Of a stretch of DNA of 42,634 nt, positions 5,925 through 40,493 are shown piece after piece. Positions within the stretch are counted from its first letter, which is position 1; each line of letters begins with the position of its first letter. The position numbers and the translations under genes were made by a program. The notes under the pieces were generated by a model. That model searched no databases. It was given only the letters and a program-made list of their open reading frames with translations, and was not told the origin of the DNA. Source of the DNA: Chitinophagaceae bacterium (GTDB lineage Bacteria; Bacteroidota; Bacteroidia; Chitinophagales; Chitinophagaceae); the NCBI GenBank assembly GCA_017882265.1, contig JADGPW010000144.1, positions 1-42,634 of the forward strand, written 5' to 3'.

Positions 5925-6230
5925 ACATGTCATCATGTATTCCTGAACTTCAAACCTTGTCATCCGAACTGGAGTGAGGGTCTACCTCATTCAGATTCCC
6001 CCCATCTTGTCATCCCGCATTGCTGTTAGCGTCTTTCGTCATTCAGACTCCCCCGCTTATTGTCATCCCGCGACTCTGAAAGTAGTTACTTCACTAAAGT
6101 AGAACGGGATGACAAGGTCGGGGAGAGGTAGTTACTTCACTAAAGTAGAACGGGATGACAAGATCGGGGAAAGACCGTTACTTCACTAAAATAGTGCAGG
6201 ATAGCAAAGTTGCGGAGAGAATGTTAGTTC
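5925..6230. repeat. CGGGATGACAA-family region with a 46-bp tandem repeat
   Basis: The first half carries several TTGTCATCCCG words (for example near 6014 and 6059) separated by CATTCAGA-type segments. The second half carries the complementary CGGGATGACAA words. From 6082 a 46-bp unit containing GTTACTTCACTAAAGTAG and CGGGATGACAAG repeats three times (starts at 6085, 6131 and 6177 for the GTTACTTCAC word), the third copy degenerate. The whole is a large imperfect inverted repeat between hicB and rpsT. No ORF is supported in the 432-nt gap. There are no unique spacers, so it is not CRISPR. Confidence 0.8.
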
Positions 6231-12106: not shown

Positions 12107-13399
12107 ATGAGCCGCTGGCATTCCTATATAAATTCTACCCGTGCGATCCTGTCGTTATATAAAGGAGAAGAACCATTTGCCTCCTTTAGCAGAAAATATT
12201 TTGCACAACATAGGAAATTTGGTTCGACGGACAGGAAATGGATCAACCATTTATGTTATTGCTATTTCAGGCTCGGCAAAGCTTTGGGGGATTCACCGGC
12301 TGAGGAAAGGATCATGACGGGATTATTTTTATGTTCCGGGGAACCTAATGATTTATTGAATGCGCTTCGGCCGGAATGGAATGAAAAGACCGGCTTAGCT
12401 ATCCCGGAAAAAATAGCCATGATCGGATCCGGTCTTGCCATTGAAACCATTTTTCCATGGGCTCATGAACTGAGTACGGGTATTGATAAAAACGAATTCA
12501 TCCTTTCTCATTTCCGGCAGCCTGACCTGTTTTTACGCCTGCGACCCGGAAATGAAAAGAAGGTGCAACAAAAGCTGCAGGAGGCAGGTATCGGATTCAG
12601 GACCGTTTCTGGTACCTGCATAGCATTGTCCAATTCTTCCAAAGTTGATAAAGTGATAGAACTTGATAAAGAAGCGGTGGTGCAGGATTATAGTTCGCAA
12701 AGGGTAGGAGAGTTTATTCAGTTGGCAGTCGGCAGTCAGCAGTCGGCAGTCGGCAGTCAGCAGTCGGCAGTCGGCAGTCAGCAGTCGGCACGTCTCAATC
12801 CGCAGACATCATTAAAAGTTTGGGATTGTTGCTCAGGAAGCGGGGGAAAATCTTTGCTTTTGTATGATATCTATAAAGATATTGAACTAACTGTATCTGA
12901 CATGAGAGAATCCATCCTTATAAATCTCAAAAAAAGATTTAATAAAGCAGGAATAAATACATTTAATTTTTTTATCGCCGATCTCACTAATTCCCAATCC
13001 CTAAATCCTAATTCCCAATTCCCAATTCCTAATTCCCAATTCCTAATCCCAGGTTCCCCATTCCAACTGATCATCGCGGATGTTCCTTGCAGTGGCAGTG
13101 GTACCTGGGGTCGTAGCCCGGAGCAGCTGACTTATTTTGAACAAAAGAAGATAGGGGAGTATGCTGATTTGCAAAAAAAGATCGTTTCAAATATTATCCC
13201 TTTCCTGCAGCCGGGAGGTTGGCTGCTCTATATTACCTGTTCCGTCTTTCAAAAAGAGAATGAGCAGGTGGTGGATTTTGTAAAAGAAAAATTCCATTTT
13301 CAGAAATTGAAAATGGAATGGCTTACTGGTTATGACAAAAAAGCTGACACTATGTTTGCAGCGCTCCTGCAGCTTCCGGTTGATCAGGGGTTATTATAA
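12107..13399 (+). CDS. RsmB/NOL1-NOP2-Sun family rRNA cytosine-C5 methyltransferase with two repeat insertions
   Basis: This 430-residue SAM-dependent RNA m5C methyltransferase has the Sun-family catalytic features. The SAM-binding loop CCSGSGGKS follows the second strand, motif IV is [10 protein letters not shown] (C328), and motif VI is YITCSVF (C378, the expected nucleophile). The N-terminal 200 residues are helical and family-like. Two stretches look foreign. Residues about 206-227 are AVGSQQS three times, encoded by a 21-bp repeat at 12724-12786. The stretch before FQLIIADVP is [11 protein letters not shown]-like, encoded by AATTCCC repeats at 12990-13056. Both fall in surface loops between core elements, and the frame and all motifs remain intact. 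It converges with the protease gene, overlapping it by 6 nt. The exact target base is not determinable. Confidence 0.88.
12724..12786. repeat. 21-bp tandem repeat (3 copies) inside the methyltransferase gene
   Basis: Three exact copies of a 21-bp unit built from GGCAGTC, GGCAGTC and AGCAGTC run in frame, giving AVGSQQS per copy. The same CAGTCGGCAGTC word makes intergenic hairpins at 16388-16531. Confidence 0.92.
12990..13056. repeat. AATTCCC repeat inside the methyltransferase gene
   Basis: About five copies of ATTCCCAATTCC-like words in a row remain in frame and encode a run of Asn, Ser, Gln, Phe, Pro and Ile. The same word family lies between genes at 18651-18789 and 35998-36100 and inside the ABC ATPase gene. 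Confidence 0.85.
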
Positions 13400-16381: not shown

Positions 16382-16531
16382 TTTTCAGTCTGGCAGCCTT
16401 GCAGTCGGCAATCTTTCAGTCGGCTGTCTTGCAGTCGGCAGTCACTGATCAGTCAGATCATTCACTACTGAAGATCTCTGACTGCCGACTGTCGACTGCC
16501 CGACTGCCCGGCTGCCCGGCTGCCCGACTGA
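16382..16531. repeat. CAGTCGGCAGTC-family inverted repeat overlapping the mnmA 3' end
   Basis: The left arm has three CAGTCGGC words (from 16399). The right arm is CTGACTGCCGACTGTCGAC onward (16480-16498), continuing in CTGCCCGACTGCCCGGC repeats to about 16531. The right arm runs through the end of mnmA and supplies its last 20 codons and stop at 16465. Confidence 0.85.
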
Positions 16532-17619
16532 ATTATCCCTCCGCCGATCACATCGTCTCCTTCATAAAATACAGCGCTTTGACCTGGGGCAATGCCTTTT
16601 ACATTTTCGTAAAATCGTACCTGTACAGACCCTGTCTCCGCATCGGGGTAAATATTTGACAGGCAACCCTTGTCTTTGTACCTGATCTTGGTGACCGCCT
16701 CCATTCCTGAAGTGATCGAATCATATTTCACCAGGTTTAATTTGCCAACGATCATTTCGTTCTGATCAAGATCATCTTCATCTCCCAGCATCACGGTGTT
16801 CGTATTAGCGTCGATCTTTGTTACAAAGACTGGTTTGCCAAAAGCAATATCCAGGCCTTTTCGCTGGCCAATGGTATAAAATGGATAGCCTTTATGCTGG
16901 CCAAGTATCTTACCGTTCTTATCAACAAAATTGCCACCATTGACTTTTTCTTCCAATCCGGCCACCCGGCGTTTTAGAAAACCGCGGTAATCATTATCGG
17001 GTACAAAACAGATCTCGTAGCTCTCACTTTTTGTAGCTAGTTCAGGATACCCATAGTCCATTGCCATTTGACGGATCTCCTTTTTGCGATAAGATGCCAA
17101 TGGAAATAAGGTCCTGCTTAACAAGTCCTGTTGCAATCCCCATAATACATAGCTCTGGTCTTTTGTTTCATCAATGGCTTTACTCACAACGAAACGTCCG
17201 TTTTCCTGTTGCCGGATCTTTGCATAATGACCCGTGGCAATAAAGGCGCAATCAAGTGCATCGGCCTTTTTTAGTAATGCCCGCCATTTGATATGCGTAT
17301 TACAAAGCACGCAGGGGTTAGGGGTCCTTCCCGCCAGGTATTCATCTACAAAATTTTCAATGACAAACCCGCCGAACTCCTCCCGTATATCGAGTATATA
17401 ATGGACAAAACCATGTTCTACCGCGGCCTGCCTTGCATCGTTAAAGCTATCCACATTACAACAGCCGGTTTCTTTTTTACCACCGCCACTGCTGCTATAA
17501 TCCCATGTTTTCATAGTAATACCCACCACTTCATAACCTTCATCATGAAGCATAAGGGCCGTCACGGTACTATCAATACCGCCGCTCATGGCTACCAGCA
17601 CTTTTCCTTTCCGACTCAT
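16465..17619 (-). CDS. mnmA: tRNA-specific 2-thiouridylase MnmA with repeat-encoded tail
   Basis: MnmA activates U34 of tRNA Lys, Glu and Gln with ATP and inserts sulfur. The PP-loop is AMSGGIDS (residues 10-17). The two catalytic cysteines are C103 in NPCVLC and C204 in YEICFVPD. The start at 17619 (MSRKGKVLVAMSGGIDS) matches the family. The longer frame to 17733 would add an unrelated hydrophobic extension. The natural fold ends around GGGIIQ. The final 20 residues (SGSRAAGQ, then SGSRQSAVRDLQ) are translated from the CAGTCGGCAGTC repeat and are not part of the enzyme family. Confidence 0.95.
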   Translation of the reverse strand: MSRKGKVLVAMSGGIDSTVTALMLHDEGYEVVGITMKTWDYSSSGGGKKETGCCNVDSFNDARQAAVEHGFVHYILDIREEFGGFVIENFVDEYLAGRTPNPCVLCNTHIKWRALLKKADALDCAFIATGHYAKIRQQENGRFVVSKAIDETKDQSYVLWGLQQDLLSRTLFPLASYRKKEIRQMAMDYGYPELATKSESYEICFVPDNDYRGFLKRRVAGLEEKVNGGNFVDKNGKILGQHKGYPFYTIGQRKGLDIAFGKPVFVTKIDANTNTVMLGDEDDLDQNEMIVGKLNLVKYDSITSGMEAVTKIRYKDKGCLSNIYPDAETGSVQVRFYENVKGIAPGQSAVFYEGDDVIGGGIIQSGSRAAGQSGSRQSAVRDLQ

Positions 17620-17663
17620 TTCCGTGTCCCTGTTGGGATTTTTAATATAAAAAAATGAAGCCG

Positions 17664-17671
17664 CAAATGTA
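17664..17671 (-). promoter_or_regulatory. Possible mnmA -7 box
   Basis: The minus strand reads TACATTTG, a perfect TAnnTTTG, 44 nt before the mnmA ATG. The -33 region is only T-rich. Confidence 0.4.
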
Positions 17672-17764
17672 CGAAAGATCAGCCATAAAAGGCGGATACT
17701 CAGTACCTGGTAGTCCATTAATTCGAATGGCATCCCTCATTTTACCTGACAAAGTACCCATACG

Positions 17765-34230: not shown

Positions 34231-35988
34231 CTATATAACAGGCTTGCCTTTGGGAATTGACGAAATCAATTTCTTTGTATAATCGGATTGAGGTTTAAAA
34301 TAAATATCATCGGCATTACCGCTTTCTTCTATCTTTCCATTATTCATGACCATGATACGATCGCTGATGTAACGGACCACAGAAAGATCATGAGAAATAA
34401 AAATGACGGTAAAACCAAATTCTTTCTTCAGGTCATTCAGCAAATTCAATACCTGTGCCTGCACGCTGACATCCAGGGCGGAGACGGATTCATCACAAAC
34501 GATAAAAGAAGGATGAAGCGCCAATGCCCTGGCAATAACAATGCGCTGGCGCTGCCCGCCTGAAAATTCATGGGGGTAACGGTTAAAGTGTTCGGCTTTC
34601 AGGTCCACTTTTTCCAATAGCTCCGTCACCTTATCTTTTCGTTGTTTGTCGCTGGATAAAATGCCATGCACTTTCATCGGTTCGGAAATAGCCGAACCGA
34701 TCGTCAATCGTGGATTCAAAGAGGAATAGGGGTCCTGGAAAACAATCTGTACTTCTTTACGCAATGATTTCAGTTCCTCTCTTTTTTTAGAAGTAAGATC
34801 AATTCCATTATACATGATCTTCCCAGCCGTAGGCTCAATCAACCGGAGCAATGTTCTTCCCAATGTAGTTTTGCCACAACCACTTTCGCCCACCAGCCCC
34901 AGCGTTTCCCCTTTATAAACTTCAAAACTTATATCGTCAACTGCTTTGGTAAAGGCAAGGGCTCTGCCGAATAGTGTTTTCCTGGAAGGGAACCAGACCG
35001 AAAGGTTTGTTACCTCAATTAGTTTTTCTGTGGAATTAGGGATTAGGAATTGGGAATTCGGTTCTTCCACCTTTAAAATGACTGATGGACTAATTCCTAA
35101 TTCCAAACCTTGCCTGCCGGCAGGCAGGTCCCCAATTCCTTGTCCCAAAAAATCACTCACCACCGGCAACCGTTCCCCCCTCGGATGATTCACCGGCCGG
35201 CAGGCCAGCAGGGCTTTGGTATAGGGATGTTGCGGATGGGAAAAGAGTTCCTTTACGGTATTTTGTTCTACGATTTCACCCTTTTGCATCACGGCGGCGC
35301 GGCCCGCTATTTCGGCAACAACGCCCAGGTCATGGGTAATAAAGATGACACCCATATTCGATTGTTGCTGCAGGTCTTTGATCAATTGAAGAATCGTTTT
35401 CTGTACCGTTACATCCAGCGCCGTAGTAGGTTCATCACAAATGAGTAAGGAAGGTTCACAGCACACCGCCATGGCGATCATCACCCGCTGTTTCTGCCCG
35501 CCGCTGAGCTGGTGAGGATAACGGTGAAACGCCAGCGCCGGATCGGGCAGTTTTACTTTCTCAAACCATTCAATGGTTCGCTGCTTCGCGGCAGCCCGTG
35601 TTATTTTGTTGTGTTGTAGGATAGCTTCCATCACCTGGTTACCGCAGGTGAGAACAGGATTAAGGGATGTCATTGGTTCCTGGAAGATCATCGCGATCTT
35701 ATTACCACGGATGTCTTGCAATTCATACCGGTTTCTTTTCAACAGGTCCGTGGTCTCCCTTCCATTTTCAGAAAAGAAGATCTCTCCCGATGCATAGTTT
35801 GCGGGGGGCGAGGGAAGTAATTGCAGGATGGAAAGTGAAGTAACCGACTTACCTGATCCCGATTCTCCCACCAGTGCCATGATCTCGCCCCGGTTCACGG
35901 TGAGTGAGATATTCTTTAACGCAGGAGTGGTTCCCGATTCGGAAACAAAATCAACAGATAAATTCTTTATTTCTAATAGGGGAGACAT
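34231..35988 (-). CDS. Fused OppD-OppF-type ABC transporter ATPase
   Basis: This 585-residue protein carries two ATP-binding cassettes in tandem, like fused peptide/nickel transporter ATPases (DppD plus DppF). The first has Walker A GESGSGKS (41-48), signature LSGGQKQRV (about 160) and Walker [13 protein letters not shown]. The second has GESGCGKT (about 367-374), FSGGQRQRI (about 476) and [12 protein letters not shown]. Each cassette is followed by the peptide-transporter motif CXPXN-like tail region, with [20 protein letters not shown] after the first. The linker contains a repeat insertion (35032-35145). No permease or binding-protein gene is in the window. Confidence 0.93.
35032..35145. 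repeat. AATTGGGAATT / CCTGCCGGCAGG repeat inside the ABC ATPase linker
   Basis: GGAATTAGG...GAATTGGGAATT (35032-35058) is opposed by CTAATTCCTAATTCC (35090-35104), and a perfect CCTGCCGGCAGG palindrome lies at 35113-35124, followed by CCCCAATTCC. On the coding strand this yields [12 protein letters not shown] and [11 protein letters not shown], in frame and between the two cassettes. Confidence 0.85.
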
Positions 35989-35997
35989 AATTAGATG

Positions 35998-36100
35998 GAA
36001 TTGGTTATTGGGAATTTGGAATTGGGAATTTGGCCTGCGTGGGAATGATCCTCGACAGGGAAGCTACCCCCAATTCCCAATAACTAATTCCTAATTCCTT
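35998..36100. repeat. AATTGGGAATT-family inverted repeat
   Basis: GGAATTGGTTATTGGGAATT (35998 onward) is opposed by CCCCAATTCCCAATAACTAA (36068 onward), with only a few mismatches. It lies upstream of the ABC gene and downstream of the AMP nucleosidase gene. Confidence 0.85.
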
Positions 36101-36895: not shown

Positions 36896-36987
36896 GTTCG
36901 AAGAGTTTATCATGTAAGCCAAATCGCACGGGTTCGATGAGTAGGCCTCGCACTGAGGAAAAGGAGAATAAGGAGAAAAAAATATCA

Positions 36988-37133
36988 CTCTTTTTTCCTC
37001 TGTGCGATGTGTATTTGTCGCACAAAGAAAAAAGAGGAAAAGAAATTGCTCTTTTTTCCTCTGTGCGAGGTGTATTTGTCGCGCATAGAAAAAAGAGGGA
37101 AAGAAATTACTCTTTTTCCTCTGCGCGAGGCTC
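36988..37133. repeat. 61-bp tandem repeat, each unit a hairpin
   Basis: Three copies of a 61-bp unit begin with CTCTTTTTTCCTCTGTGCGA at 36988, 37049 and 37110 (the third is cut short). Within a unit the left part pairs with TCGCACA/TCGCGCA...AAAAAAGAGG, so each copy folds into a long stem. A partial copy (CGCACTGAGGAAAAGGAG) precedes the array from about 36949. An ORF of 92 codons can be drawn through it but is low-complexity and not credible. Confidence 0.88.
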
Positions 37134-38557: not shown

Positions 38558-38982
38558 GAGTTGTGTTTTTGAAGTTCATCCGCCATAGCTTTAGCGAAGG
38601 CGGGGGTGAAGGTAGGATTTTCAGGTTAATGCGGAAATTGGTTGGATAGACGGTGAACGTGAGGGAGGGGTTGTATGGAGTAGGTGGGTAATGCTGCTTC
38701 ATTTAACTTATTCATTAATGAACCAGGATCCGGTATAAAATACCTGTGAACAATTGTTGGCAATTATTCTTGTTGATTTTAACCAATAACCTTTATGACC
38801 CTTCAAGGAAGAAACAACAATTACCGTATCCGGATGGCCCCGAAAAATTTTCATATCTTTTTTCCACCGGAAGAACGGGGGGAAAGAAGAACTTTGACAC
38901 AGTTTACTTTACACTCCCGAAAGGGAATGTTCGCAATTATTAGTTCACTTTTATCTATTATCTATTCACTGTTCAACATTCT
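38558..38982. other. Intergenic gap without a supported gene
   Basis: This 425-nt gap lies between the LolA-like gene and glutamate dehydrogenase. It carries a CCGCC-atagctttagcga-aGGCGG hairpin near 38580-38604 (a relative of the AGCTTCGGCGAAGC nests near 17800). A short word repeat (TTTATCTATTATCTATTCAC) lies near 38950. Small frames across the middle are low-complexity and lack support. Confidence 0.6.
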
Positions 38983-40401: not shown

Positions 40402-40493
40402 GAGTTGAGATTTATGTTGTGAATGGTGAGTTGTGAATGGTGAATGGTTTACGAACCTAAAAGAACTTTTCCGATTGGCGACTGAGCGACTGC
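40402..40493. repeat. GTGAATGG word repeat upstream of gdhA
   Basis: TTGTGAATGGTGAGTTGTGAATGGTGAATGG (three near-copies of GTGAATGG) lies at 40418-40448, right before the gdhA start on the other side. It is followed toward the ccmD-like gene by the GACTGAGCGACTGCCTACTGCC words that run into that gene's 3' end. On the minus strand TAGGTTCG (40452-40459) is a 7-of-8 match to the -7 box. Confidence 0.6.

Follow-up and report, generated by a model that had tools for sequence, protein, structure and literature searches.

What is an exact triple repeat doing in frame within a conserved rRNA methyltransferase gene, and where did the repeated DNA come from? The question is raised by a contig of a Chitinophagaceae bacterium (GenBank assembly GCA_017882265.1, contig JADGPW010000144.1), of which we analyzed a stretch of 42,634 nucleotides, referred to here as the window. 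An earlier note on this DNA, made from the sequence alone, described three identical 21-bp units in the gene and regarded them as a stray intergenic repeat that had entered a gene without killing it. We consider that the triple repeat is probably an in-gene copy of a dispersed, selfish-like heptamer repeat which is tolerated in disordered loops of the proteins that carry it.

The Host Enzyme and Its Two Heptamer Arrays

The host gene (12107–13399, + strand) encodes an RsmB/Fmu-type m5C methyltransferase of 430 residues, in agreement with the earlier assignment to the Sun/RsmB family. Its open reading frame holds a Methyltr_RsmB-F domain (Pfam PF01189, E 2.5e-20), the top Foldseek match for its model is E. 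coli Fmu/RsmB (1sqg), followed by 2yxl and 1sqf, and the cysteines of the PCSGSG and ITCS motifs (C328 and C378) show no variation across 47 aligned sequences, so that domain, motif cysteines and RsmB-like fold all place it among the RsmB/Fmu methyltransferases. The enzyme looks intact, as had been suggested for both motifs and for the remainder of the fold: the AlphaFold model has a mean pLDDT of 91.4, and its only segments below 50 (residues 217–226 and 306–311) both fall within peptides encoded by the arrays described below.

The three units at 12724–12744, 12745–12765 and 12766–12786 are identical, each being GGCAGTCGGCAGTCAGCAGTC, and 12724–12786 reads in the RsmB frame as AVGSQQS three times over, placed in what we term loop 1. 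Each unit is made up of CAGTCGG, CAGTCAG and CAGTCGG and lies within a longer array of about ten heptamers (12717–12792, + strand; family A, CAGTCGG/CAGTCAG), which includes the low-confidence residues 217–226. The tandem triplet is thus borne out by the sequence and by TRF, which reports for 12719–12790 both a period of 7 (10.3 copies, 89% matches) and a period of 21 (3.4 copies, 98% matches). A second array, absent from the earlier note, occupies loop 2 (12987–13064, + strand; low-confidence residues 306–311) with about ten heptamers of the AATTCCC/AATTCCT type (family B), a word unrelated to that of the first array. Its peptide is located immediately ahead of the PCSGSG strand. For the first array, the note's placement of an in-frame repeat in a loop directly before the SAM-binding strand is supported. 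Measured between chosen anchors, loop 1 of the window protein has 50 residues against a median of 29 (21 more, or 9 heptamers) and loop 2 has 57 against a median of 43 (14 more, or 6 heptamers). An insert of some 21 residues in loop 1 and some 14 in loop 2 would be close to neutral for the enzyme.

Abundance and Heptamer Families in the Genome

The genome to which the window belongs is represented by one metagenome-assembled genome (MAG) of 90% completeness, and genes were called with our own simple caller. Further genomic copies of the unit, for which the earlier note had asked, are many: the 19-base family A pattern CAGTCGGCAGTCNGCAGTC, with up to 2 mismatches, gave 391 matches, many of them overlapping inside one array, against 2 for the reversed control, and the family B pattern AATTCCCAATTCCTAATTCCC, with up to 3 mismatches, gave 154 matches against 2 for its control. 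Period-7 arrays were then counted in a base sample of 427,634 b, comprising the window and 20 stretches which are not a strictly random sample because they were drawn from contigs named by the pattern lists. A threshold of 19 matches of 21 gave 10 arrays; it was then relaxed to 17 of 21, checked by a Markov control. At this threshold the sample holds 48 arrays, where a single order-2 Markov simulation of these stretches yields none, and its period spectrum peaks at 7, 14, and 21. The heptamer arrays of this genome are therefore not a product of chance, and they show the head-to-tail 7-nt units that characterize heptamer direct repeats of the TAACTGA, STRR, and LSSR kind.

A further 51 loci, mostly picked for family A or B, brought the sample to 635,628 b, a total that includes some overlap, with each array counted once. 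This extended sample contains 135 period-7 arrays, which were sorted by nearest word into nine heptamer families (A–I); family A accounts for 59. As many as 42 of the 135 lie inside called genes, 29 in number, and the view of the earlier note that entry of such a repeat into a gene is unusual finds no support in this genome.

Genes That Carry Arrays

The hosts, identified by Pfam or by reading of the protein, include RsmB, a double ABC transporter, saccharopine dehydrogenase, MetG, BirA, PdxJ, ArgS, ValS (with two arrays), a DUF7033 protein, an NrdJ-type ribonucleotide reductase, a rhodanese protein taken for MnmH, LipA (in the C-terminal tail), two acyltransferase E2s, an MqnD-like protein, and MazG. 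Also among them are GuaA, a TrpG-like amidotransferase, IspG, a ferredoxin reductase, LpxB, a Kdo transferase, an ORF6N protein, methylmalonyl-CoA mutase, PGK, a metal ATPase, an E1 fusion, and DnaX, and the remaining host is a protein without a Pfam match which carries its array at the N terminus. By hand count, the array lies inside one Pfam domain or splits it into two stretches in 14 of the 29 hosts, the domain table printing just the better stretch for GuaA, LpxB, and PGK. Repeat peptides of other kinds were seen in the same material. A TPSVAEGQ-like in-frame repeat peptide occurs in many copies in E2 acyltransferase linkers (L112, 2279–4309) and was noted also with L101 and with DnaX in L112. 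The loci read also have 11 occurrences of a second palindrome, CCCGATAGCTATCGGG, of which 4 adjoin heptamer arrays, and its APDSYRDG-like peptide is present in several host proteins (L088, L093, L111, L074).

That the family also lives between genes, as the note had held, is confirmed by 27 intergenic family A arrays beside 32 in genes, in loci partly chosen for family A; for the window and the 20 stretches, which were taken by contig, the numbers are 3 and 6. The families differ in this respect. Families A and B together have 9 arrays in genes and 10 between them in the window and stretches, whereas C–I have 0 and 27 (p 8e-5), and over all loci the counts are 36 and 46 for A and B against 3 and 40 for C–I (p 1.2e-5). 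Put differently, 36 of the 39 word-assigned in-gene arrays are A or B, the other three being one E and two I. Pure arrays of the main A and B words contain no stop on either strand, those of C, F, G, and H bring one on each strand, and those of D, E, and I are stop-free on a single strand only, with D and E reading as hydrophobic peptides; the variants CAGTCAG (A) and AATTCCT (B) do introduce stops. Within genes, 29 of the 32 family A arrays are read in the sense direction, giving AVGSQQS-like peptides, as against 56.7% expected from stops alone (p 4.6e-5), and the antisense reading gives PTADCRL. Counted per gene, 22 are sense, 2 antisense, and 1 both, and all four in-gene family B arrays are sense. 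Being open in all three frames on one strand fails to separate in-gene from intergenic arrays (p 0.14). Since the sense bias exceeds what stops predict and the open-frame test does not discriminate, the in-gene copies appear to be filtered by the peptide they would encode as well as by stops. Arrays of period 22 number 13 between genes and none within them. A higher-order period of 21 bp was considered as a mark of coding arrays and set aside: among arrays of at least 42 nt, 21 was the best lag for 6 of the 18 in genes and for 4 of the 29 between them, which is not a clear difference.

Palindromic Forms Between Genes

Family A arrays are accompanied by an inverted partner in 15 of 27 intergenic cases but in 5 of 32 in-gene cases (p 0.002), so the arrays within genes look like single arms without a core. 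A fixed-size unit with terminal inverted repeats, which marks the palindromic elements of Rickettsia, is not what the genes contain, as 27 of the 32 in-gene family A arrays lack a partner and array lengths vary; GuaA is an exception and carries a palindrome. In the window, a hairpin at 16382–16531 had been described as non-coding, which holds for its left arm of CAGTCGG-like family A units (16383–16443, + strand, TRF), an intergenic sequence, and fails for its right arm (16480–16531, − strand, TRF and ORF), which lies inside the 3′ end of mnmA (16465–17733, − strand, Pfam) and supplies its last codons, encoding the tail SGSRAAGQSGSRQSAVRDLQ. The last Pfam domain of mnmA stops at residue 401 of 422, before this tail, and 16383–16531 has a folding energy of −88.1 kcal/mol (z −9.6).

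Family D is a palindromic element of about 140 bp with GATAATA-type arms, an imperfect hairpin core near GAAAAGACCTTACAGCTTTGATACTTTCTCAAAGCTGTAAGGTCTTTTC, and inverted arms. In the loci read, 17 copies align across the conserved core, several of them without the heptamer arm on one side, and two copies fold at z −13.5 and −14.4. It is short and multi-copy with mostly inverted terminal arms, as is a MITE. The search of the genome for family D scored 14 of 146 first-look candidates, and the 58 relatives gave one weak partial match. Compared with known RNA families, the core matched only miRNA models, far below gathering scores. A core is common to about 4 of 17 aligned family A elements (L108, L090, L005, L014). 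Inverted copying of one arm into its partner was also considered as a source of the palindromes and was rejected, because a hairpin's own arms resemble each other no more closely than arms taken from different hairpins of the family (median scores 8.0 over 16 pairs and 12.5, respectively).

Other families are represented in the window as well. A family B array (35031–35062, − strand) stands in frame in a fused ABC transporter gene (34231–35988, − strand; Pfam and protein reading), where it separates the two ABC domains, and an intergenic family B element (36000–36099) combines an array at 36000–36034 with an nhmmer match at 36010–36099 to another family B hairpin (E 9.5e-07). Two oppositely oriented family C arrays (449–482 and 517–545, together 449–545) are flanked by the 23S rRNA gene, which ends at 386, and the 5S rRNA gene, which starts at 552. 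The period-7 scan also found an intergenic array resembling family D (ATTATCT-like, 38948–38975, + strand) and an intergenic family I array (GTGAATG, 40419–40448, + strand). Longer tandem repeats lie at 36965–37130 (61 bp, 2.7 copies) and 6078–6194 (46 bp, 2.6 copies), and the ABC gene contains the peptide LPAGRQGL, the palindrome word for which has 9 occurrences in the loci read.

Relatives, Homologs, and Recurrent Loop Occupation

Outside its own genome, the family A vocabulary is scarce. The family A pattern has a match in 11 of 58 relatives, with at most 12 matches each, and the family A words, allowing 1 mismatch, occur in 13 of 295 other genomes of a phylum sample, none of them with more than 13 matches, as compared with 245 for the own genome. 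Sampling ten relatives at 20–60 kb each gave 25 arrays per 100 kb in G021, 8 in G007, and none in the other eight. The words of G021 are different ones (GATGTTG, GATGACA, CGTGAGA) and by eye also occur in inverted pairs. The CAGTCGG array word is found exactly in 19 stretches of viral contigs (L252–L270), in several of which an inverted, PTADCRL-like partner is visible within the same open frame. In another genome, G232, the reversed family A control pattern gave 226 matches, and the heptamer in reverse order seems abundant there.

PGK has 36–37 extra residues in the own genome, and the insert is present in 0 of 29 aligned relatives (PGK was found in 31 of 32 relatives searched, and 29 loci were aligned). 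GuaA carries a coding palindrome with arms AVGSQQS... and ...PTADCLLPTE (fold z −11.8); the loop is short in 27 of 29 aligned relatives, and at 16 of 21 matches other heptamer arrays occupy it in G012, whose GuaA is 83% identical, and in G004, which makes three genera with an array in this loop. Inserts of the PGK and GuaA type were either gained here or lost elsewhere.

For RsmB we assembled 110 sequences, namely the window, 29 loci from a genome search, and 80 named sequences whose titles are mostly Chitinophagaceae or other Bacteroidota, with one Williamsia sp.; removal of 4 duplicates left 106, three of which lack an anchor. At 17 of 21 matches and with the window counted, arrays occur in loop 1 of 11 sequences and loop 2 of 13, six having both. 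The loops amount to 13,227 nt, and across the other 112,659 nt arrays were found in 6 sequences, five times at nt 297–399 of the open frame, which is perhaps a third array-bearing loop. Counts for loop 1, loop 2, and elsewhere are 15, 16, and 6 at 16 of 21 and 8, 11, and 5 at 18 of 21. No AVGSQQS-like loop was seen by eye in other genera among the 109 other RsmB sequences; AVGSQQS is found in the window alone, and 17 of 104 homologs have other heptamers in these loops, with peptides such as HSPLTTHHSPL, KSKIENQKSKI, and NSKFKIQNSNF. The picture of a lone intergenic element straying into a gene does not survive this comparison, as other genera have different heptamers in the same loops. The closest RsmB in the genome search (G027, 57%, L032) is array-free in both loops, and in the closest named homolog (L121) both loops are of usual length and contain other heptamers. 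Many array-bearing homolog loops are likewise of usual length, so some arrays have replaced residues rather than lengthened the loop. In one homolog (L134, 1801–2353) a single RsmB gene has four period-7 arrays, each built on a different heptamer, and a fifth array lies immediately upstream. Non-heptamer inserts that resemble other dispersed repeats (FAKASEG-, PSTTLGARGSAPSTSP-, and LPAGQA-like) are present in the RsmB loops of four others (L133, L139, L132, and L157), which come from Niastella, Longitalea, and another Chitinophagaceae MAG.

On a tree of 105 RsmB rows, built without the loops by a quick method and with half of its forks weak, the 18 array-bearing rows (window included) require at least 11 changes, 7 of them forced by supported branches, and these counts do not distinguish gain from loss. 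Shuffled labels require 16.9 changes against the 11 observed, so the trait is clustered and the array occurrences are not all independent.

Origin and Persistence of the Arrays

The same words stand at unrelated sites, take palindromic forms between genes and appear as in-frame single arms within them, and the same loops are occupied repeatedly. We propose that the arrays spread as selfish-like, non-autonomous repeats, either through transposition of the palindrome or through template-switch copying of one arm, and that array length would then change through slippage. To persist in a gene, an array would need a total length divisible by 3, a stop-free reading in the frame used, and a polar, disordered peptide; under such filters the host enzyme would still work, and from the material above we infer copying between sites, slippage, and survival through near-neutrality. 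As to what might move the arrays, searches of the own genome for Y1 transposases and reverse transcriptases revealed no mobilizer gene. A spreader based on reverse transcriptase (retron, DGR, or group II intron) was rejected, with no RVT_1 match in the 90% complete genome, as was a RAYT/Y1 transposase, for which just 2 Y1_Tnp matches are too slight a basis. A bolder extension, which we put forward tentatively and regard as somewhat doubtful, is that Bacteroidota harbor a new class of palindromic mobile DNA whose terminal arms are the heptamer arrays. Such arms might move or be copied alone, with a vocabulary specific to the lineage and the period of 7 kept, and might supply loop sequence that re-colonizes the RsmB and GuaA loops in genus after genus.

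The dispersed-copy reading has to be weighed against others. The arrays may have grown in place, by replication slippage in 7-nt steps from chance seeds and with no movement, and growth of this kind would agree with the higher-order periods of 14 and 21 and with the arrays of G021, which by eye drift gradually from heptamer to heptamer. Heptamers are also the commonest repeat class in most repeat-rich genomes, going by the accessible part of PMC4679880, and slippage has been proposed for them in that of PMC4692102. We nevertheless judge local origin unlikely: one heptamer recurs at dozens of unrelated sites, the 59 family A arrays, and is rare or absent in 58 relatives; PGK has 36–37 extra residues of this unit that are missing from all 29 aligned relatives; and family D copies have a common core besides their arms. 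It is the recurrent heptamer, the PGK insert, and the family D core that indicate copying between sites.

The two remaining accounts give the arrays a function. If the repeat peptides served their proteins as linkers or loops and were maintained by selection on that role, one would not expect homologs to have a different sequence or nothing at the same site, nor one peptide to serve unrelated enzymes without a common role while the same DNA lies between genes; hence we find this account very improbable, even though the peptides are polar and flexible, natural linkers contain several of them (E2 lipoyl linkers, MetG, ABC-ABC), and several genera use the same loops. Lower still we place phase variation, whereby changes in heptamer number would frameshift host genes on and off and rsmB would be a contingency locus. 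Phase variation through longer repeat units is established elsewhere, and a heptamer is indeed not a multiple of 3, but surface genes are not the usual hosts, most of which are housekeeping enzymes that carry the array in an internal loop or a linker, and the exact 21-bp unit suggests frame-neutral steps. It should be noted that all 29 host genes are in frame by design of the search, which off copies would escape.

Implications

If the arrays are dispersed copies, selfish-like repeat DNA would reside inside many core enzymes of an uncultured Bacteroidota lineage, a situation best known from Rickettsia, and genomes could carry short repeat clutter in genes that look intact. The inserts would amount to a natural, repeatable assay of which protein loops tolerate insertion. 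For annotation, a stretch resembling AVGSQQS or HSPLTTH in a Chitinophagaceae protein is probably derived from a repeat and not a functional motif. It also becomes a testable question by what means heptamer arrays are copied to new sites and why their unit is 7.

Comparison With Known Systems

The Rickettsia palindromic elements (RPEs), which were reportedly described by Ogata et al. in 2000 and 2002, share with the present arrays a dispersed repeat that occupies intergenic DNA and also lies in frame in unrelated genes (here 42 of 135 arrays, in 29 genes). Within the portions of the sources at hand, RPEs are dispersed palindromes found between genes and in frame in many unrelated conserved genes (PMC2229807, PMC10969869), occur as several families per genome, encode a conserved peptide, are thought to be tolerated, and measure 105–146 bp (PMC2229807) or about 150 bp (PMC10969869). 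The in-gene part here differs in being a heptamer array of variable length, in most cases one arm alone, and it occurs in a Chitinophagaceae-like bacterium.

Cyanobacterial STRR heptanucleotides have also been reported inside the RNase P RNA gene. They resemble our arrays as tandem heptamers in intergenic DNA and in functional genes and differ in phylum and words. Direct repeats of TAACTGA are reported from Beggiatoaceae, Cyanobacteria, and five Bacteroidetes (MacGregor 2015, PMC4679880); the available portion of that paper describes genome-wide tandem arrays with a patchy taxonomic spread, some lying in ORFs as LSVISYQ, and in its main genome the copies are mostly just ahead of start codons, with the few in known proteins mainly peripheral. 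Arrays of TAACTGA in Bacteroidetes, and arrays within ORFs, are already known on this evidence (PMC4679880, partial text). The first array of the window is CAGTCGG within a gene rather than TAACTGA close upstream of a start codon, and the present genome differs further in its other heptamers, its many families, its use of internal loops of core enzymes, and its palindromic arms with a core. The GGGNATC heptamers of Xanthomonas and Nostoc are dispersed, mostly non-coding, under-represented in coding sequence, and discussed as G-quadruplexes in the accessible text of PMC4692102, which also mentions three heptanucleotides of Calothrix. GGGAATC is one letter from GGGAATT, the complement of family B. 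In-frame colonization of loops was not found in that portion of PMC4692102.

The literature searched, outside which many subscription papers lie, contained no in-frame heptamer arrays across Chitinophagaceae core genes and no palindromes with heptamer arms plus a core; it held nothing on in-frame tandem repeats or palindromes in Chitinophagaceae or Bacteroidetes, nothing on RPEs in Bacteroidetes and, on heptamers in that group, PMC4679880 alone. Overall, among the known systems compared here, RPEs are the closest in behavior, and the TAACTGA, GGGNATC, and STRR heptamers the closest in form.
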